A stretch of DNA of 64,000 bases, taken from Chamaelirium japonicum. Lineage: Eukaryota; Streptophyta; Magnoliopsida; Liliales; Melanthiaceae. The notes under the pieces were generated by a model. That model ran no database searches. It saw only the letters and a program-made list of their open reading frames with translations, and was not told the origin of the DNA. Each line of letters starts with the position of its first letter. The first letter of the stretch is position 1. Location: contig OX393557.1 of NCBI GenBank assembly GCA_947650365.1, forward strand, positions 48,515,979 to 48,579,978, written 5' to 3'. Made by a program: the position numbers and the translations under genes. Below, piece after piece: positions 2,599 through 61,130 of the stretch.

Positions 2599-4966
2599 TA
2601 TTAGGTTTGATGTGGTCTACAGCTCGTAAAACCCTAGGATTGGCTGTATATGGTTGATAGTTTATTTAGGATTGTATAAAGGTACATATTATTATACGTG
2701 TTCTGTTTACAGAACTTAAAGAGCCATGGCTATATAGTAGTCCATCTGAGTGGGAGATTCAGTGGATCGGTCCTATGAGCCTAAATTGTTCGCAGCTCTG
2801 ATTTGGGTTGGTCACCCTATCAGGATAAGCTGTTGGAATGACAGAGCATGAGTATCTCCATAATGGTCATTACCAGGCACAGTGTCTGTGGCTGAACAGA
2901 ACCAACACGGTGCACAGATCGGTGAGCAGACACCGGTGCACATAGCCGTGTTTCTGCTTAGATTAATCGGTCCTAAACCCTGAGGAACCGTGACCGGTGG
3001 ACTAACCAGTTGCGTGTAACTTTGGTTCACCAACGTGTGAGGGATCTAACCACGACCCAATACCACGGTGCGTTGGGTTACCGGGCTGACGTTGCATCGG
3101 CACGCCACTCTTGCAGGCCATCCATATCCTTATCGGTAGGTGCGTTCCTTGGTATGACATATACCGCACTAAACCCAGGCCTGGTGGTCAGCAGTTGAGC
3201 TGTTGACCGGATCCGGTTGCTTGGCCAAAGCGATCGGAGGTGCGATGTGATAGTCAACCTGGAAGGAACCTAGTCATATGGTCACTCGAGTCTGACGGTG
3301 CTCTCCACCGCTCGAGTTGACTCATGGCACCAAGTGGAGGGACATTGTATTACCAATACTAAGCGGAGAACAGGGGTATGCGAGAGAGCTTAATAAGTCT
3401 GGGAGAATTGGAGTGCAGCCTGCGTCGCACTCTGGGTGGCCACGCAGGTTAACCGGGATCCAGAGGATTGACAGGGACACTCGGGTAGTGTGTCGATCGG
3501 GTTCGGTTGGAAGCCATGAATCCTAGTCCCTGAAGGTTCCACCCTATCCATGATCATTACGGATCAATACTTTTTCCTTGTCTCACAGCATATTATGAGT
3601 TGAAGAAATAATGCCTAATCGTCCTGTGTTCCGTGAGTGCATCGCACTGGAGCATGGTGGTAGCACAGGACTAAGTGTGTTCACTAGGGGGCAACTCCAG
3701 CGTAGTGTAGAGACATACGATGTTGCCATTATACCATGAGGAGTCCATTCCGTGTGTGCGTGTTGCACTAGAACGCAGAATGCGAGTTTAGTAATTTTTA
3801 CTATAGGGCACCCCACCTTTTACTAAGGGTACCCTAGTAAATAGTAAAAATACTATTCATCATCCCATGGTGTATTGACTTGTTGCTGATGCCGATGAGG
3901 TGCCCTAAGTGTTAGGGTGCATTATCGTGCACGTAGATGGGCCATACATTGTCCCGCATGAGGTGAACGACCACTAGATACATGGGGGCATTTTGGTCAT
4001 TTCAAAATGTCCCGCATGCCCTAGTGGCCGCCATCCTCACTAGGGCTAGCATGCATGGCCATCAAATTTATAATTAAGGGATTAATTCAGATTTGAATGA
4101 TTTTGAATCATCTCCTTAATTGCAACAATTCTAATATGGCAACTAGTAATAAAAAGGGGCATTGAATTTGAGAGTAATGAGAGGGAGAGAGAGAGGAACG
4201 GTTTCAAATGACAAGAGAGAGTGAGGGGCACGATTTTTAGATCTGAAATGGTGCATCCTTCTCATATTTTTCGATGAAGAACCAAAGCCCCTTCGCTTAT
4301 GGTTCGGATTTTTGTAATCTCTCTCTCTCTCGGGTTCATCTCTTCTCTCTCCCTCATCTTCTTCTCCAAGTGTGTGTGTGAGATTGATGGAGATTGCTTG
4401 CACTCTGAGGCACTCAGAGATTAGAGTGCAAGGATCCGGGATGATATGTGAGATCGGGTGAATCCAAAGAGATTCATTTCTCTCTTGCATGAGGATCCGG
4501 CTCGAGATTGCTGCCCAGATTTTACGGGTAGATCTGCACTGTTTTGATCACTGCAGGAGCTATAGAAGTCCAAATGACTTCAAACTGGTTGTAAACTCTT
4601 GGCATTGAAGTCTTCTTTCCGGCAAATCAAGTTTCGCTCCGTTCCAATGTCGGGATAGAAAGTTACGGCCTTTGCACTGAAAGGTGTTCGTGCAGATCCG
4701 AATTTGTCTTCATCAATATTGAAGCAATTCTTCGCGGTGTTAAATACCGCACGAAGGTATAACCTACTAACCCCTAGATCTATCATAATGCATACATATG
4801 AGATATGTCGATCATTTTGATAGATGACTATAGGGGTTCGATTCGTATTTGTTTTATCATTTACGCATATGATTAATATGAATGAAAATTTTAAAATGTA
4901 CCGCACACCGAAACGATCCTCGGGATCAACTCCACCTTCCGCTACGCCTCCGATATCACTCCAACA
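2599..4966 (+). repeat. 5' LTR of the copia-type element
   Basis: 2,368 bp, long for a copia LTR. It aligns base for base with 10219-12584 apart from scattered, mostly transition differences and a 2 bp change in a CT run near 4320. It starts TATTAGG, a likely G-to-A change of the canonical TG end that survives in the 3' copy, and ends CCAACA. Short ORFs in it, for example around 2812-3033 and 4580-4906, recur in the 3' copy but resemble no protein I know. Confidence 0.93.
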
Positions 4967-10218: not shown

Positions 10219-12584
10219 TGTTAGGTTTGATGTGGTCTACAGCTCGTAAAACCCTAGGTTTGGCTGTATATGGTTGATAGTTTATTTAGGATTGTATAAA
10301 GGTACATATTATTATACGTGTTCTATTTACAGAACTTAAAGAGCCATGGCTATATAGTAGTCTATCTGAGTGGGAGATTCAGTGGATCGGTCCTATGAGC
10401 CTAAATTGTTCGCAGCTCTGATTTGGGTTGGTCACCCTATCAGGATAAGCTGTTGGAATGATAGAGCATGAGTATCTCCATAATGGTCATTACCAGGCAC
10501 AGTGTCTGTGGCCGAACAGAACCAACACGGTGCACAGATCGGTGAGCAGACACCGGTACACATAGCCGTGTTTCTGCTTAGGGTAATCGGTCCTAAACCC
10601 TGAGAAACCGTGACCGGTGGACTAACCAGTTGCGTGTAACTTTGGTTCACCAACGTGTGAGGGATCTAACCACGACCCAATACCACGGTGCGCTGGGTTA
10701 CCGGGCTGACGTTGCATCGGCACGCCACTCTTGCAGGCCATCCATATCCTTATCGGTAGGTGCGTTCCTTGGTATGACATACACCGCACTAAACCCAGGC
10801 CTGGTGGTCAGTAGTTGAGCTGTTGACCGGATCCGGGTGCTTGGCCAAAGTGATCGGAGGTGCGATGTGATAGTCAACCTGGAAGGAACCTAGTCATATG
10901 GTCACTCGAGTCTGATGGTGCTCTCCACCGCTCGAGTTGACTCATGGCACCAAGTGGAGGGACATTGTATTACCAATACTAAGCGGAGAATAGGGGTATG
11001 CGAGAGAGCTTAATAAGTCTGGGAGAATTGGAGTGCAGCCTGCGTCGCACTCTGGGTGGCCACGCAGGTTAACCGGGATCCAGAGGATTGACAGGGACAC
11101 TCGGGTAGTGTGTCGATCGGGTTCGGTTGGAAGCCATGAATCCTAGTCCCTGAAGGTTCCACCCTATCCACGATCATTACGGATCAATACTTTTTCCTTG
11201 TCTCACAGCATATTATGAGTTGAAGAAATAATGCCTAATCGTCCTGTGTTCCGTGAGTGCATCGCACTGGAGCATGGTGGTAGCACAGGACTAAGTGTGT
11301 TCACTAGGGGGCAACCCCAGAGTAGTGTAGAGACATACGATGTTGCCATTATACCATGAGGAGTCAATTCCGTGTGTGCGTGTTGCACTAGAACGCAGAA
11401 TGCGAGTTTAGTAATTTTTACTATAGGGCACCCCACCTTTTACTAAGGGTACCCTAGTAAATAGTAAAAATACTATTCATCATCCCATGGTGTATTGACT
11501 TGTTGCTGATGCCGATGAGGTGCCCTAAGTGTTAGGGTGCATTATCGTGCACGTAGATGGGTCATACATTGTCCCGCATGAGGTGAACGACCACTAGATA
11601 CATGGGGGCATTTTGGTCATTTCAAAATGTCCCGCATGCCCTAGTGGCCGCCATCCTCACTAGGGCTAGCATGCATGGCCATCAAATTTATAATTAAGGG
11701 ATTAATTCAGATTTGAATGATTTTGAATCATCTCCTTAATTGCAACAATTCTAATATGGCAACTAGTAATAAAAAGGGGCATTGAATTTGAGAGTAATGA
11801 GAGGGAGACAGAGAGGAACGGTTTCAACTGACAAGAGAGAGTGAGGGGCACGATTTTCAGATCTGAAATGGTGCATCCTTCTCATATTTTCCGATGAAGA
11901 ACCAAAGCCCCTTCGCTTATGGTTCGGATTTTTGTAATCTCTCTCTCTCGGGTTCATCTCTTCTCTCTCCCTCATCTTCTTCTCCAAGTGTGTGTGTGAG
12001 ATTGATGGAGATTGCTTGCACTCTGAGGCACTCAGAGATTAGAGTGCAAGGATCTGGGATGATATGTGAGATCGGGTGAATCCGAAGAGATTCATTTCTC
12101 TCTTGCATGAGGATCCGGCTCGAGATTGCTGCCCAGATTTTACGAGCAGATCTGCACTGTTTTGATTACTGCAAGAGCTATAGAAGTCCAAATGACTTCA
12201 AACCGGTTGCAAACTCTTGGCGTTGAAGTCTTCTTTCCGGCAAATCAAGTTTCGCTCCGTTCCGATATCGGGATAGAAAGTTACGGCCTTTGCACTGAAA
12301 GGTGTTTGTGCAGATCCGAATTTGTCTTCATCAATATTGAAGCAATTCTTCGCGGTGTTAAATACCGCACGAAGGTATAACCTACTAACCCCTAGATCTA
12401 TCATAATGCATACATATGAGATATGTCGATCATTTCGATAGATGACTATAGGGGTTCGATTCGTATTTGTTTTATCATTTACGCATATGATTAATATGAA
12501 TGAAAATTTTAAAATGTACCGCACACCGAAACGATCCTCGGGATCAACTCCACCTTCCGATACGCCTCCGATATCACTCCAACA
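10219..12584 (+). repeat. 3' LTR of the copia-type element
   Basis: 2,366 bp, starts TGTTAGG and ends CCAACA. It is preceded directly by the polypurine tract AAGTGGGAGAT at 10208-10218 and followed by the TSD TCCTC. It is the partner of 2599-4966; most differences are C/T or A/G. Confidence 0.95.
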
Positions 12585-30645: not shown

Positions 30646-32095
30646 TGATGGGGACATCGAGCAGCGCCCCTGGCGCGTGTACCAGCACAGGAGGCGCCAC
30701 CTGAGCTTATGGCTCTGATCGGACAGTCAGCACCATGATGGATGTCGTTTATTTATTTTTGTTTCTTGCATTATGTTATTTAGTCCCACCTCAGCTTTCA
30801 GGGACTTTCGCTTGTTATCGCAGCCCTTTATACAGGCATGCCCATGGAACATGTAATGGCATTGAATAATGAATGAAAATTTTCCGTTCCCTCTACACTT
30901 GTGTTGAGAGAGCCATGGTGAGGTGTGTGAAACCCTAACCATAGACCTAGGTGTGTGAAACCCTAGGCCCCATCTAGAGGTGTGAAACCCTAGTGGGATC
31001 CCCCACCCCTCCCCTTTTTCTAAACCCTAACCAATTCCCTACCCCGTACAGCCGCCACCCCCTCACCCCCATCCCTCCGCTCCTGTGTGCGACACCCGAC
31101 CCCCGCCCCTTCCCATCCCTTCCCTTTCCCCCTCCCCTTGGCCGACGCCCCAGCCCCACCCCGGCTGGACCCCGACCCTGCACACGTCCCCGCCACCACC
31201 CCGTCCGCCCCTGCCCGGCGCCGGCCCACTTGCCACCCGGCTCGAAACCCCTACCTCCCCCTTCAATGACCGGACCCCTCCCCCTCCTCGCTCCCGGTCA
31301 CCACCAGCCCTGCGCCGGCCCGCTTGCCAACCGGCCCGAAACCCCTACCTCCCCCTTCACCGACTGGACCCCTCCCCCTCCTCGCTCCCGGCCACCACCA
31401 GCCCGGCGCCGCCCCTTCCCCTGTTCGTTTCTGCCCTCGCTGCAGCCCAGCTCCACCACATTCCTCCCTCCTCCCTGCCCACCACAATCCAGCCCGAACC
31501 CCACTCCCGTGACCCACCTCAGATCCCATCCGACCCGACCCAGCCGACCCAAACCAACCCGTGTCCTGATACCCTAGTCTACAACCAACCCACACCACAC
31601 CCTACCCACTCTTCTCCCGTAACTCCGGCTTGCTCACCTAGCGAACCCCGACGAGGACCATGGAATGATCGAAGAAAAAGAAGGGTGCCTCGACATCAAC
31701 TCCCCCTTCCTCGACTCGGAAGAGAGAGCGTGGAGGAATATGTGCCTGCGCCATCATCAGCATCTCAACAGTACGGATTTCCCTACTCGACCAGGTACCG
31801 ACGTGTTTCACCAATTGGGTCTCTAGTATATTATCTTTGCCAACTGCTGCCCTGTTGTGAGGTTGAGTGTCCACCTGCCTGTAGCGCTGTTAATCTAAAT
31901 ATTGCAAGTAGGACTATTAGGGTTGTCTTTTATCGCCTGATATCGAAATCGTTCGGCATTGTTATAGTAGCTCCCAACGCATCTGCCCGTGTTATTTATT
32001 TGAATTAATTTTCTCGCTTGGTATCGCAATTAATAGTAAGCCATGCCTGCTCAATTAATTAATAACATTTTCATCACCTGCATTGTTTCGCATCA
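30646..32095 (+). repeat. 5' LTR of the chromovirus
   Basis: 1,450 bp, TGATGGGG to GCATCA. The first 73 bp repeat the 3' end of the gag-pol ORF. The TATA position reads TTTATACA (30828-30835) where the 3' LTR has TTTATATA. A GC-rich part (31000-31600) contains about two copies of a 94 bp unit starting GGCCCGCTTGCCA and gives long artefact ORFs on both strands. Confidence 0.93.
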
Positions 32096-34867: not shown

Positions 34868-35773
34868 TGTAACATCCGCCCCAAACACACAAGATTTTGT
34901 CCGCTTTGCCCGTGCCCGCACGAGAACTTCCCAGGGTGGTCACCCATCCTGGTACTACTTTCGCCCGAGCACGCTTAACTACGGAGTTCTTACGAAATCA
35001 GTAGCGGCGCACGGTTTTAAAACGCGTCTTGGCAGGAAAGGTAGTGAGCCCCCAAACACAAGATATTGTCCTCTATTGGTCTCTTGGGTACTCGAACCCT
35101 CAACCTCAAGGTTTTGCACTAGCATGGTTACCATCGAACCACCTAGAACGCGTCTTCTATGTTTGGGAGGGGAAATTATATAAGTAGCTCAGGATCTCCT
35201 TCTCTCCAGGCGATGTGGAGCTAACTCGTGGCCTTGTACACCTCACCTCACCTCACCTCACCTCATCCATCTTGGCATTCCCGCCTCAGGAGTCTTGGCT
35301 CTTGGCTATTGGCCTATTGGATCTTGGTCGTCACAATCCACCCCCCTTAGGGCTACACGTCCTCGTGTAGGGTTAGACCCCCCCATCCCGAGGAGAACCG
35401 GCTCTGATACCATTTTATAACATCCGCCCCAAACACACAAGATATTGTCCGCTTTGCCCGTGCCCGCACGAGAACTTCTCAGGGGGTCACCCATCCTGGT
35501 ACTACTCTCGCCCGAGCACGCTTAACTACGGAGTTCTTACGAATTCCGTAGCGGCGCACGGTTTTAAAACGCGTCTTCTATGTTTGGGAGGGGAAATTAT
35601 ATAAGTAGCTCAGGATCTCCTTCTCTCCAGGCGATGTGGGGCTAACTCATGGCCTTGTACACCTCACCTCACCTCACCTCACCTCATCCATCTTGGCATT
35701 CCCGCCTCAGGAGTCTTGGCTCTTGGCTATTGGTCTATTGGATCTTGGTCGTCACAATATCTTGGTCGTCACA
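34868..35773 (-). mobile_element. Cassandra TRIM with 5S rRNA-derived LTRs
   Basis: A minus-strand element of 906 bp flanked by GTGCT (34863-34867 and 35774-35778). On the minus strand the 5' LTR is 35773-35416, the PBS TGGTATCAGAGCC is at 35412-35400, an 80 bp interior ends in a purine tract AAGGGGGGTGGA, and the 3' LTR is 35335-34868. LTRs start TGTGACGACC and end GATGTTACA/GATGTTATA. Each LTR holds a segment resembling the 3' part of plant 5S rRNA: GTTAAGCGTGCTCGGGCGA and AGGATGGGTGACC. This is the diagnostic Cassandra feature. The 3' LTR (minus sense) carries a 116 bp insert. The 5' LTR start is duplicated (ATCTTGGTCGTCACA twice near 35744-35773). Confidence 0.95.
35031..35146 (-). mobile_element. 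116 bp SINE-like insert in the Cassandra LTR
   Basis: Flanked by a perfect 10 bp direct repeat AACGCGTCTT (35021-35030 and 35147-35156) and absent from the sister LTR. On the minus strand it starts GGTGGTTCGATGGTAACC and contains GGGTTCGAGTACCC, which resembles a tRNA B box (GGTTCGANNCC), with a possible weak A box upstream. Its 3' part, on the plus strand CCCCAAACACAAGATATTGT, repeats the Cassandra LTR end. It could be a tRNA-related SINE or a template-switch product. Confidence 0.55.
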
Positions 35774-37771: not shown

Positions 37772-39024
37772 TGATGGGGACATCGAGCAGCGCCCCTGGC
37801 GCGTGTACCAGCGCAAGAGGTGCCACCTGAGCTTATGGCTCTGATCGGACAGTCAGCACCATGATTGATGTCGTTTATTTATTTTTGTTTCTTGCATTAT
37901 GTTATTTAGTCCCACCTCAGCTTTCAGGGACTTTCGCTTGTTATCGCAGCCCTTTATATAGGCCTGCCCATGGAACATGTAATGGCATTGAATAATGAAT
38001 GAAAATTTTCCGTTCCCTCTACACTTGTGTTGAGAGAGCCATGGTGAGATGTGTGAAACCCTAACCATAGACCTAGGTGTGTGAAACCCTAGGCCCCATC
38101 TAGAGGTGTGAAACCCTAGTGGGATCCCCCACCCCTCCCCTTTTTCTAAACCCTAACCAATTCCCTACCCCGTACAGCTACCACCCCTCACCCCTGTCCC
38201 TCCGCTCCTGTGTGCGACACCCGACCCCGCCCTTTCCCATCCCTTCCCTTTCCCCCTCCCCTTGGCCGACGCCCCAGCCCCACCCCGGCTGGACCCCGAC
38301 CTTGGACACACCCCCGCCACCACCCCATCCGCCCCTGCCCGGCGCCGGCCCGCTTGCCACCCGGCTCGAAACCCCTACCTCCCCCTTCACCGACCGGACC
38401 CCTCCCCCTCCTCGCTCCCGGCCACCACCAGCCCTGCGCCGGCCCGCTTGCCAACCGGCCCGAAACCCCTACCTCCCCCTTCACCGACTGGACCCCTCCC
38501 CCTCCTCGCTCCCGGCCACTACCAGCCCGGCGCCACCCCTTCCCCTGTTCATTTCTGCCCTCGCTGCAGCCCAGCTCCACCCCATTCCTCCCTCCTCCCT
38601 GCCCACCACAATCCAGCCCGAACCCCACTCCCGTGACCCACCTTAGATCCCATCCGACCCGACCCAGCCGACCCAAACCAACCCGTGTCCTGATACCCTA
38701 GTCTACAACCAACCCACACCACACCCTACCCACTCTTCTCCCGCAACTCCAGCTTGCTCACCTAGCGAACCCCGACGGGGACCATGGAATGATCGAAGAA
38801 AAAGAAGGGTGCCTCGACATCAACTCCCCCTTCCTCGACTCGGAAGAGAGAGCGTGGAGGAATATGTGCCTGCGCCATCATCAGCATCGCAACAGTACGG
38901 ATTTCCCTACTCGACCAGGTATCGACGTGTTTCACCAATTGGGTCTCTAGTATATTATCTTTGCCAACTGCTGCCCTGTTGTGAGGTTGAGTGTCCACCT
39001 GCCTGTAGCGCTGTTAATCTAAAT
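37772..39024 (+). repeat. 3' LTR of the chromovirus (truncated)
   Basis: 1,253 bp matching 30646-31900. It keeps the TATA box TTTATATA at 37952-37960 and loses the last roughly 195 bp. The break after AATCTAAAT is followed by unrelated AT-rich sequence and then (CT)n(GT)n. Confidence 0.92.
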
Positions 39025-40061: not shown

Positions 40062-41908
40062 TCGACTGCTGAGGTCACCGCTCTTGGAGAGATGGAGATA
40101 GCTCCACAAACCTTGAGTGACTATTGAAAGAAATCCACCGTTGACGACAACCCCACTATTTTGCGTTCTTCGTGATATTTCACTATCTTTCGTCCAAAAT
40201 CTACAACCATTTATGATATAACCATAAAGTGATATCGCGTCTTGCAAAGGGCTACAAGATAAGCACCAGAGATCCTCATTCATCAGCGAATTGTGGTTGT
40301 CGTGCTGCTCTTGTGCTTATAATAATCACATGACATTCATGATGTGAACACGTAATTATTTTTCAGTAATTATTGTTAATAAAATTAAGTCATGATGTGA
40401 ACACTTACGTCTTTCTCGAAACATGATAGAAATTCACGATCATGAAATTGTGGCATATTTTGAGTACTCCGATTATTAATGATGGCTTTATACTCCCTAT
40501 ATTGTAGGTTATGAATTAGATTATGAATAACATACATATATTTATTGAATGGACTGAATGAATGAGTAAATGATCATAAAATACTTACTTAATGAATGGT
40601 CACACTTCATCACACTGGCACAACACATATATATGTGCCTGTTAAATCTCATTTACAGACAGTCGAAGGGTTTTGCTTCCTTGAGGTTTACCCATTTCGA
40701 CAAATATAGATAGACCTCTATTGAAATTTACTCGATTACCGTCATAGTTCCGCTCAAGTTGATTGAATCTCATGTCTATACCATGTAGATATCTTAAGCA
40801 CAATGTCAGACATTCTTCCGCCAGGTATCCTTCAGTAATTGATCCCTCCGGACGACTCTTATTACGAACATATGGTTTCAATATTCACAAGTACCTAATT
40901 TGAGAAGGAAATTTATGGATAAATACATTAAATAATGATCAAATATATTAAAGAATAAGACGTTTACCTCTTGATAAAATATATCCAGTAGTAATAAACT
41001 AGATCATTGAGGTTGGTCTATTTTGCCAAGTGAACAGTCAAATACACCATGACATCAAAGAAGGAATATGAAATATCATCTTATGCTTGTACATTGTGAT
41101 TGCAATATCCCTCTCCATCTGATTAAGTTGGTCCACTCTAAGTACCTTTGAGCATAACTGTATGAAAAAAGTATTGAGCTCAATTAACAGACCAGATACC
41201 TAGCCTGTTTGGCTAAATTCCCACGTATAGCAAGGGATAACAATCGACGCATAAGAATATATATGACAATCGTGGCTCTTTAATCCAGACAAATTATGTT
41301 CATTCTCTTGCACGCATTGTGCGATATTCAAAGAGTAACCGTCCGGTATTTTCAAAGACCGTAGGAATGCACTTAAGGCTGTATTTTGTTGTGAGCTCAT
41401 GGTGTAGCATGCAACTGGCAACACATACTTATCCCTAATCTCTTGGGGATGAAGTGATTTTCGAATGCCCAACTCTCTTAAGATCGAGACAAGATTTAAG
41501 ATTATCTTTCATCTTACCGTCGAGATTCAGTAGTGTTCTTATAATGTTGTCATACATATTTTTCTCGATATGCATGACATCCAAGTTATGTCGCAATAGT
41601 AGGCTGCTCCAGTTTGGTAATTTAAAAAAAATACTCTTCTTCTTCCAATTATACTTATGTGTATAGTTTTCGTATGTTCTCTTCTTTTTGTCTTTTCCAA
41701 GTGTCACTGAATCGAGCTGATCCAATTCATACAAGACTTCTACCCTCGAAAGCTGCTTCGGAGCCTTTGTAAGCTCTTTCTTGTCATTGAACACTCGTTT
41801 GTTATGCCTCCACTTATGGCTGTTAAGAAGGAATCTTTGATAATCCATATAACAGAACTTGCCTTTGTTCTTTAACCGTAATGAATATGTCTCCTTATTG
41901 TATGTAAA

Positions 41909-42521
41909 TGTGACGACCAAGATCCAATAGGCCAAGAGCCAAGAGCCAAGACTCTTGAGGCTCGGATGCCAAAATGGATGAGGTGAGGTAAGGTGTACAA
42001 GGCCATGAGTTAGCCCCAATTGCCTTGAGAGAAGGAGATCCTGAGCTACTTATATAATTTTTCCTTCCAAATATAGAAGACACACTTTAAAACCATGCGC
42101 CGCTACGGATTTCGTATGAACTCCATAGTTAAGTGTGCTCAGGGCGAGAGCAGTACCAGGATGGGTGACCCCCTGGGAAGTTCTCATGCGGGCACGGGTA
42201 AAGCGGATAGTATCTTGAAGACGCATTTTAAAACCGTGCACCGTTGTGGATTTCATAAGAACTCCGTAGTTAAGCGTGCTCAGGGCGAGAGCAGTACCAG
42301 GATGGGTGACCCCCTTGGAAGTTCTCATGCGGGCACGGGTAAAGCGGACAGTATCTTGAAGACACGTTTTAAAACCGTGCACCGTTGCGGATTTCATAAG
42401 AACTTCGTAGTTAAGCGTGCTCAGGGTGAGAGCAGTACCAGGATGGGTGACCCCCTAGGATGTTCTCCTGTGGGCACGAGCAAATCAGACAGTATCTTGT
42501 GTATTTGGGGCGGATGTTACA
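41909..42521 (+). mobile_element. Cassandra solo LTR with triplicated 5S domain
   Basis: Begins TGTGACGACCAAG and ends GCGGATGTTACA, the ends of the LTRs at 34868-35773, but on the plus strand and 613 bp instead of about 358 bp. Flanks GTAAA and GTAAG suggest a 5 bp target duplication with one change. It splits the CACTA transposase between the FGNMS and LLRHNLDVM blocks. The extra length is a tandem triplication of the 5S-like domain. No internal region or second LTR is present. Confidence 0.9.
42079..42521 (+). repeat. Three tandem 5S rRNA-like domains, 141 bp period
   Basis: Units start GACACACTTTAAAAC (42079), GACGCATTTTAAAAC (42220) and GACACGTTTTAAAAC (42361), an exact 141 bp spacing. 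Each holds the pol III internal control elements of 5S: box A GTTAAGYGTGCT, intermediate element GGGYGAGAG and box C GGATGGGTGACCCCC. Box A is TGTGCT-mutated in unit 1, and the intermediate element is changed in unit 3. The outer two units are bounded by the normal LTR flanks. Confidence 0.92.
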
Positions 42522-43946
42522 GTAAGGCATGCCAATTTTCCTTTAGTACTTCAACCGGATAAGTTGGCATATGTAGAAAAATCGTTGATGGTCCCTAGAA
42601 GTGCCGTATGCATCCAAAAATTCTAGCTCAATGAAGCCTCATACGTATCGGCTCCAACCTCCTACAACTCGTTCAACTCCTCAATCAAAGGCTGCAAGTA
42701 AACGTTAATATCATTACCAGGTGACTTGGGTCCGAAAATGAGTAAGGAGAGCATTGTGTATGGATTTTTCAAGCACATCCAGGGAGGCAAATTGTATGGA
42801 ACTAGAATAACTGGCTATATGTTCTACGACACACTCATATTCCCAAAAGGGTTGAAGCCATCGCTAGCAAGCCCTAACCTGATGTTGTGAACTTCATATG
42901 CGAATTCTGGATATGTCTGATTAAAATCTTTCCACGTTAGAGAGTCGGCAAGATGTCTCATAACCCCATCATTTGTACGTTCTCGTGCATGGCACCTTAT
43001 GTGATCAGTAGTCTTCGATGACATAAACAACCTCTGAAGCCTGTCCCTAAGCAGGAAGTATAGAAGAATCTTTGTAGATATAGTTTTCTTCCTTCGGTTA
43101 GTACTTAACTCGGCATCCGCCTCTTTCTATCTTGGTGCTCCGCAAATGTGGCATGACCGCGCATGTTTGAACTCCTTTCGGTACAATATACAATCGTTCA
43201 TATATGCATCTATTTTGCCATAACCAAGCCCAAGATCTTTCATTATCTTCTTCGTCTCATAGAATGATTTTGATAATATCTCATCAATTAGAAAAGCCTC
43301 TTTCAACAACACTAGCAATATAATAAATTACATATTACTCTAACCATTAAGGTATTTCAAATAAAGAAGCTTTATAGTGAAAAAGAGTTTTAAAAACTTC
43401 TCACACCTCGGGTATAGATGTTGATCAACATCTTAAAGCATTATGCAGAACTTGTCTGCATTATTATTGGGCTGATCACCGGACAGTATTTCTGTGCCTA
43501 TTCTACCTTGCAAATCATGTATTATACCCTCCATGTCATCACCATCGTTTGTATTAATATCATCGTCATCGATCACTGTGTTTGCATTTTCACCGTGAGC
43601 TATCATAGGGATTGCATCTAGCTCATCATCGTGCGAGAACCAACGATTATAACTAATATCAATGCCACGCATTACCAGATACATCTCACATTCCTCTCGA
43701 ACCTTCCTAGTCACCATTCCACAGTTTATATAGGGACACACATTTTTTTCATCAATTGGTGCAAGACGCTCAAATACAAAATCCAGAAATATTCTGACTC
43801 CTCTGTACTCTTGGCTCATCCGATTCGAATTATGTATCCAACTTTTATCGATCGAATACATCTTCACCTATTTGGCCAAACATACACCTGCAGTAATTTC
43901 AATTGTTCAAATAGGCCCAAGACCCGACTCTTCTTGGAACTAGAAA

Positions 43947-44942: not shown

Positions 44943-45240
44943 TCACCTAACCCTAATCCTAACCTAAACCCTAACCCTAATCTAAACCCTAAACCTAACC
45001 CTAACCCTAATTTAAACCTAAACCCTCAACCTACTCCTAACCTAAACCCTAACCCTAAACCTAATCTAAACCCAAACCTAAACCCTAAACCTAAGTCTAG
45101 CCCTAATCCTATAACCCAAACCCTAAACCTAAACCCTAAACCTAACCTAAACACTAAACATAACCCTTACCCTAATTCTAAACCCTAAACCTAAACCTAA
45201 ACACTAAACCTAACCCTAATCCTAAATCCTAAACTTAAAA
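44943..45240. repeat. Degenerate telomere-like repeats (CCCTAAA)n
   Basis: A run of CCCTAA, CCCTAAA and CCTAA words with many single-base changes. A few more occur at 45330-45360 and 45905-45930 around a hAT-like insertion. The plant telomere unit is TTTAGGG. The array lies in the 5' region of the minus-strand CACTA element, the same relative position as 60985-61130 in the second element. Confidence 0.85.
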
Positions 45241-60984: not shown

Positions 60985-61130
60985 GTTTTAGGGTTACCTA
61001 GGTTTAGGGTTAGATTTATGATTAGTTTTATTATTAGGGTTAGGGTTATGCTTAGGGTTAGGGTTATGTTTAGGTTTAACCCTAAACCTAACCCTAACCC
61101 TACCTAAACCATGACTAGCTCTAAACCTAA
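60985..61130. repeat. Telomere-like repeats in inverted arrangement
   Basis: TTTAGGGTT/TTAGGG words on the left (60988-61078) turn into CCCTAAACCTAACCC words on the right (61079-61130), so the two halves are inverted. A further TTAGGGTTAGG patch lies at 61456-61495. Confidence 0.85.

Follow-up and report, generated by a model that had tools for sequence, protein, structure and literature searches.

The Cassandra lineage is described as one of non-autonomous LTR elements that carry a 5S-type promoter in the LTR (PMC10853983). LTR lengths of approx. 200 to 400 bp mark the small and long ends of an 81-sequence set, and the box spacing is described as retained across Cassandra (PMC10853983). A published search motif, which is a query rather than a definition of the lineage, places box A and box C 18 nt apart (PMC7215508). 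Tandem forms have been reported as Cassandra arrays and TA-TRIMs, in which 5S domains recur in an arrangement resembling 5S arrays and for which recombination or template switching has been proposed (PMC7215508, PMC4717578), with template switching and LTR-LTR recombination named as proposed origins of the Cassandra arrays (PMC7215508). Pol III-type small-RNA sequences also occur in the LTRs of two further TRIMs, Helenus and Ajax (TRIMp3), the former having been characterized in one plant only, Selaginella (PMC10886601). In 5S rDNA arrays, finally, 5S units follow one another head-to-tail, each with a TATA box and a terminator.

The locus described here lies in a stretch of 64,000 nt from Chamaelirium japonicum (contig OX393557.1, positions 48,515,979 to 48,579,978), hereafter the window, in which an earlier note had placed a Cassandra solo LTR with three tandem 5S domains. 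This assignment was borne out, as the LTR ends fit, the flanks GTAAA and GTAAG match at 4/5 positions and 5S modules are present. All features of the locus lie on the + strand:

41904..41908, +, left target-site copy GTAAA, 4/5 identical to the right copy
41909..42521, +, solo Cassandra LTR of 613 bp, TGTGACGACC...GGATGTTACA, colinear with the LTRs of the neighbouring element except for the extra units
41909..42076, +, U3-like part of the LTR before unit 1, the initial 152 nt of which are 87.1 and 86.5% identical to the LTR pair of the neighbour
42051..42057, +, TATATAA, 26 nt ahead of unit 1 and close to where plant 5S genes have their TATA box
42077..42217, +, 5S unit 1, with T3 instead of T4 at its head
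42127..42170, +, box A to box C of unit 1, 19-nt spacing
42218..42358, +, 5S unit 2, which looks like a hybrid (5' half unit-3-like, 3' half unit-1-like), with T4 at 42226-42229
42268..42311, +, box A to box C of unit 2, 19-nt spacing
42359..42499, +, 5S unit 3, with T4 at 42367-42370
42409..42452, +, box A to box C of unit 3, 19-nt spacing
42500..42521, +, U5 end of the LTR beyond unit 3, 18/22 nt exact against the end of the neighbour's 3' LTR
42522..42526, +, right target-site copy GTAAG

With its intact ends of the TG...CA type, a near-5-bp target-site duplication and a 5S-derived pol III promoter borne in the LTR, the locus shares the hallmarks of Cassandra TRIMs, and membership of the lineage is indicated by the Rfam 5S matches together with the promoter boxes and by colinearity with the neighbouring element, which possesses a pair of LTRs and a primer-binding site (PBS). 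It differs from described Cassandra elements in holding three modules in one LTR, in its box gap of 19 instead of 18 nt, and in its 613 bp. Pfam recognized pieces of tnp2 transposase in the flanking frames on both sides of 41909-42521 (the right piece when read with a stop omitted), so that the element landed in a CACTA-type transposon.

Tandem Repeats Finder reported 3.0 copies over 42076-42499 with a score of 680, and a second repeat search returned spacings of 141 and 141, so that the two methods agree on the exact 141-bp period and the three 5S modules. Over lags of 20 to 299, the best self-match had 256 of 282 nt identical, while 60 dinucleotide shuffles reached at most 104, which excludes a tripling by chance. 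As also anticipated, the unit length corresponds to a 5S sequence of about 120 nt plus about 20 nt of spacer. Given in AAGAC phase, in which all unit boundaries are stated here, the units abut directly and head-to-tail, and of their 141 sites, 13 differ between units 1 and 2, 13 between units 2 and 3 and 21 between units 1 and 3 (128, 128 and 120 identical); in another phase, 126, 128 and 118 of 141 sites are identical. Short tandem repeats can be mis-assembled, and the locus might in reality hold a single unit; an expansion artefact would repeat one sequence, however, and because the units diverge by 9-15%, a misassembly of identical repeats is unlikely and we regard the single-unit reading as very improbable. 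The 141-bp tripling is thus real. It is not a TA-TRIM, whose repeat comprises an LTR plus internal domain (LTR-internal-LTR-internal-LTR), whereas here a 141-bp 5S module recurs within one LTR with the copies directly adjoining. Within the literature covered here, several 5S modules in one Cassandra LTR have not been reported, although key Cassandra papers outside it may describe such a case.

Three tandem 5S-like units could also represent a stray piece of a true 5S rDNA array that inserted in the LTR. The sequences bounding the units (AAGAC.../...ATCTTG) recur, however, in the neighbouring Cassandra module, which unit 1 matches at 90.9% over 132 nt, and the remaining LTR is colinear with the neighbour's Cassandra LTR; we therefore judged a true 5S rDNA fragment to be scarcely credible. 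The head-to-tail order is shared with 5S rDNA arrays, but here only about 20 nt separate the 5S domains, TATATAA is missing before units 2 and 3, no T4 follows unit 3 within the LTR, and of the Rfam 5S (RF00001) scores of 38.2, 36.1 and 32.7 bits for units 1, 2 and 3 only that of unit 1 attains the 38-bit gathering score.

Box A and box C motifs as published were found in 5/5 modules, namely the three units and both LTRs of the neighbour, with a gap of 19 nt in 3/3 units and of 18 nt in 2/2 neighbour LTRs; the units of the solo LTR depart in this from the 18-nt Cassandra search motif. TATATAA stands ahead of unit 1 alone, and 5S genes of Cardamine have their TATA at -28 (PMC13087485). Runs of at least four T on the + strand of the LTR comprise a T5 at 42058, which precedes unit 1, and the T4 at 42226 and 42367; the next T run after unit 3, at 42536, lies outside the LTR. 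The proposal of a 5S-like internal promoter in every unit thus holds for the boxes, whereas three equal 5S-gene promoters find no support, given the 19-nt gap, the single TATATAA and the T3 of unit 1. Nor did any positive evidence emerge here for the suggested effect on pol III transcription or for recombination with true 5S arrays. Likewise, the "miniature 5S array" of the earlier note stands as three tandem 5S modules, while an array of equal promoters was rejected, with TATA, box spacing, terminator and fold all speaking against it and the Rfam threshold reached in unit 1 only.

Folding z-scores against shuffles were -0.88, -0.56 and -1.81 for units 1, 2 and 3 (38, 54 and 6 of 200 shuffles folding at least as well), versus -3.82 and -2.89 for the neighbour's modules. 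Units 1 and 2 have lost the folding excess, and unit 3 retains it in weaker form. Divergence among the units, in contrast, spares the promoter: variable sites number 2/45 from box A to box C versus 21/96 outside (p 0.007), both of the inner ones being CpG, and non-CpG variable sites 0/41 versus 11/72 (Fisher p 0.007). Such a distribution would not be expected from neutral decay alone, and the modules may have diverged while still active or under constraint. This distribution, with up to 21 of 141 sites different between units and yet two CpG changes only between the boxes, would suit a triplicate that is the standing form of a long-active multi-unit Cassandra subfamily, retained because it makes pol III transcription stronger or staggers it, and an inserted A common to the units would mark such a subfamily as distinct. 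Against it stand the shifted box spacing, when compared with the conserved spacing reported for Cassandra (PMC10853983), and the weak folding excess of the units relative to the neighbour. In addition, the exact 31-nt string from box A to the intermediate element (IE) of unit 2 occurs once in the 1.52-Gb genome (3253 contigs), at unit 2 itself, a count that diverged members would escape and that, with units 1 and 3 themselves not matching, says little on the wider family. Overall, we consider a standing subfamily improbable. Pattern scans for related 5S modules in viral and prokaryote contig collections gave 0 matches, as expected there. The tripled LTR probably does little today and is probably a relic.

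The closest comparison is offered by a full Cassandra element in the same window, on the opposite strand:

34868..35773, -, full Cassandra element, target-site duplication GTGCT, PBS TGGTATCAGAGC at 35401-35412, lying in a retrotransposon pol gene between its RT and RNase H domains
35416..35773, -, 5' LTR with one 5S unit, 18-nt box spacing, initial 17 bp doubled
34868..35335, -, 3' LTR, holding a 126-bp insert besides one 5S unit with 18-nt box spacing
35031..35156, -, 126-bp insert, starting with the 5S unit's AAGACGCGTT and containing the B-box-like word GGTTCGAGTACC and a U5-like stretch

The PBS is the published one, a purine run, AAGGGGGGTGG, was read as the polypurine tract, and no gene lies inside the element. 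A methionine-type PBS and a polypurine tract characterize the Cassandra lineage, but a solo LTR lacks the internal domain in which to look for them. The doubling in the 5' LTR occupies 35740-35773, with TGTGACGACCAAGATAT followed by TGTGACGACCAAGATCC. The host pol gene is presumably of the Ty3/gypsy type, judged from its domain order. A near-identical 94-bp tandem repeat at 31213-31415 and 38337-38534, about 7.1 kb apart, flanks the RT/RNase H frames, and the two copies are probably the LTRs of the element hosting this Cassandra copy.

Both neighbour LTRs had been described as single-5S; each does hold one 5S module, but the 126-bp insert in the 3' LTR, which sits between U3 and the 5S module, had been missed. 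It shares a 16-nt exact match with the post-5S region of the 5' LTR and carries the words TGGTTCGATGG and GGTTCGAGTACC, which we compared with tRNA boxes A and B as in Helenus. The B-box-like word recalls the small-RNA sequences in the LTRs of Helenus and Ajax; unlike in Helenus, the insert adjoins a 5S module, ARAGORN called no tRNA in it, and a comparison with Rfam yielded no tRNA hit up to E 10. Its folding is on a par with that of shuffled sequence (z -0.02). Its likeness to a tRNA would therefore lie in motif words only, and the insert is perhaps a second promoter module ahead of the 5S one.

In 5S genes, box A lies at +50. Here it begins at unit position 51, position 1 of the Rfam 5S model falls on unit position 4 in 4/5 modules (units 2 and 3 and both neighbour modules; position 9 in unit 1), and TATATAA starts 26 nt ahead of unit 1, of the unit in the 5' LTR and of the 126-bp insert alike. 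Because these three measures converge, AAGAC is the predicted pol III start to within a few nt. AAGAC is also the point of rejoining at junctions 1/2 and 2/3, and at that very base the 126-bp insert meets the resident 5S unit, a coincidence that was noticed after the fact and concerns two LTRs in one window. Such a pattern would be left by a template switch made once the RNA 5' end, and with it the end of the template, had been reached. The 18 bases AAGACGCGTTTTAAAACC would moreover fit the 18-bp terminal duplication of Cassandra RNA (PMC10886601).

As units 1-3 have in common an inserted A and substitutions at unit sites 75 and 134, none of which occurs in either neighbour module, all three units trace to one ancestral module; two further changes (sites 34 and 100) are common to units 1-3 in comparison with the 5' LTR only. 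With the 5' LTR of the neighbour serving as outgroup, derived changes at sites 23, 27, 29 and 38 unite units 2 and 3, and those at sites 8 and 123 unite units 1 and 2; site 110 reads A in units 1 and 2, C in unit 3 and G in the outgroup, and a derived change at site 6 groups units 1 and 3. Informative sites, at which unit 1 differs from unit 3 and unit 2 agrees with one or the other, number 20. One switch along unit 2, from a unit-3-like 5' part to a unit-1-like 3' part, accounts for 17 of them (misfits at 8, 47 and 132), with a shuffle p of 0.006 in that direction and 0.013 in either direction; after exclusion of CpG columns, 9/10 sites fit (exact p 0.04). Unit 2 thus looks like a hybrid of the outer units, a pattern again noticed after the fact and in one window, and the resulting order A-(B/A)-B is expected from out-of-register recombination of two A-B dimers.

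We tentatively favour, at a little under an even chance, the account that the locus is a solo LTR, now decayed, from a Cassandra subfamily whose transcribed 5S module was doubled and then tripled through a template switch and recombination. During reverse transcription, minus-strand synthesis would have reached the 5' end of the Cassandra RNA at AAGAC and jumped not to the 3' R but to a point just past a 5S module of another template (ATCTTG), adding an upstream module. Two A-B dimers would then have recombined out of register to give A-(B/A)-B, and LTR-LTR recombination would have left the solo LTR, which subsequently decayed. This account draws on one locus and one neighbour, and plain DNA duplication would give equal anatomy; sites 8, 47 and 132 misfit the single switch, site 6 groups units 1 and 3, and divergence spares the boxes. 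The ATCTTG end of the unit is not known to correspond to a transcript end.

Duplication of the module in situ, by slippage or unequal crossing-over at a fixed LTR and with no reverse transcription, is a substantial possibility. It is the simplest path to a tandem array, would produce the hybrid middle unit by unequal crossing-over, and has a parallel in the tandem Wukong TRIMs of maize, for which unequal crossing-over was proposed (PMC4528315). The ends of the first duplication share only about 1 nt, however, namely the G before AAGAC, and the insert in the other LTR rejoins at the same base, so that the AAGAC start would have to be coincidental.

Under the favoured account of a template switch, the arrangement would carry consequences for transcription, as only unit 1 combines a TATA with the internal boxes. 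Its transcript would tend to end at the T4 heading unit 2, yielding RNAs about 150 nt long but none of the element itself, if we assume that plant pol III stops at T4; read-through of the Cassandra LTR has been reported (PMC7215508). In a complete element, unit 3 would supply most of the element RNA, so that retrotransposition would bring the LTR back to one unit. Multi-unit LTRs are therefore predicted to be self-limiting and rare. A broader and more doubtful idea, which we consider rather unlikely at present, is that Cassandra-type LTRs are modular at the RNA start. End-of-template jumps during reverse transcription would stack pol III modules, either 5S or tRNA-like, exactly at that site, giving a promoter array in a single LTR that transposition would later trim to one module; this one process would then have produced both the triplicate and the 5S-plus-insert LTR of the neighbour. 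Should template switching stack modules at the RNA start, the gain or swap of a promoter would be a predictable by-product of reverse transcription, which bears on the question of how Cassandra gained and kept its 5S promoter. If the locus is one relic duplication, it would be a curiosity and an annotation warning, since Rfam reports a 5S gene here.

The window contains several other repeats. The same 24-bp repeat unit occurs at 4320-4366 and 11938-11984, 7.6 kb apart, and is perhaps part of another LTR pair, while a 43-bp tandem repeat at 1319-1647 (7.7 copies, 93% matches) overlaps open frames. Telomere-like sequence was found at 44945-45239, with about 48 copies of ACCTAA (72% matches), and as a TTAGGG-type stretch at 60999-61078.
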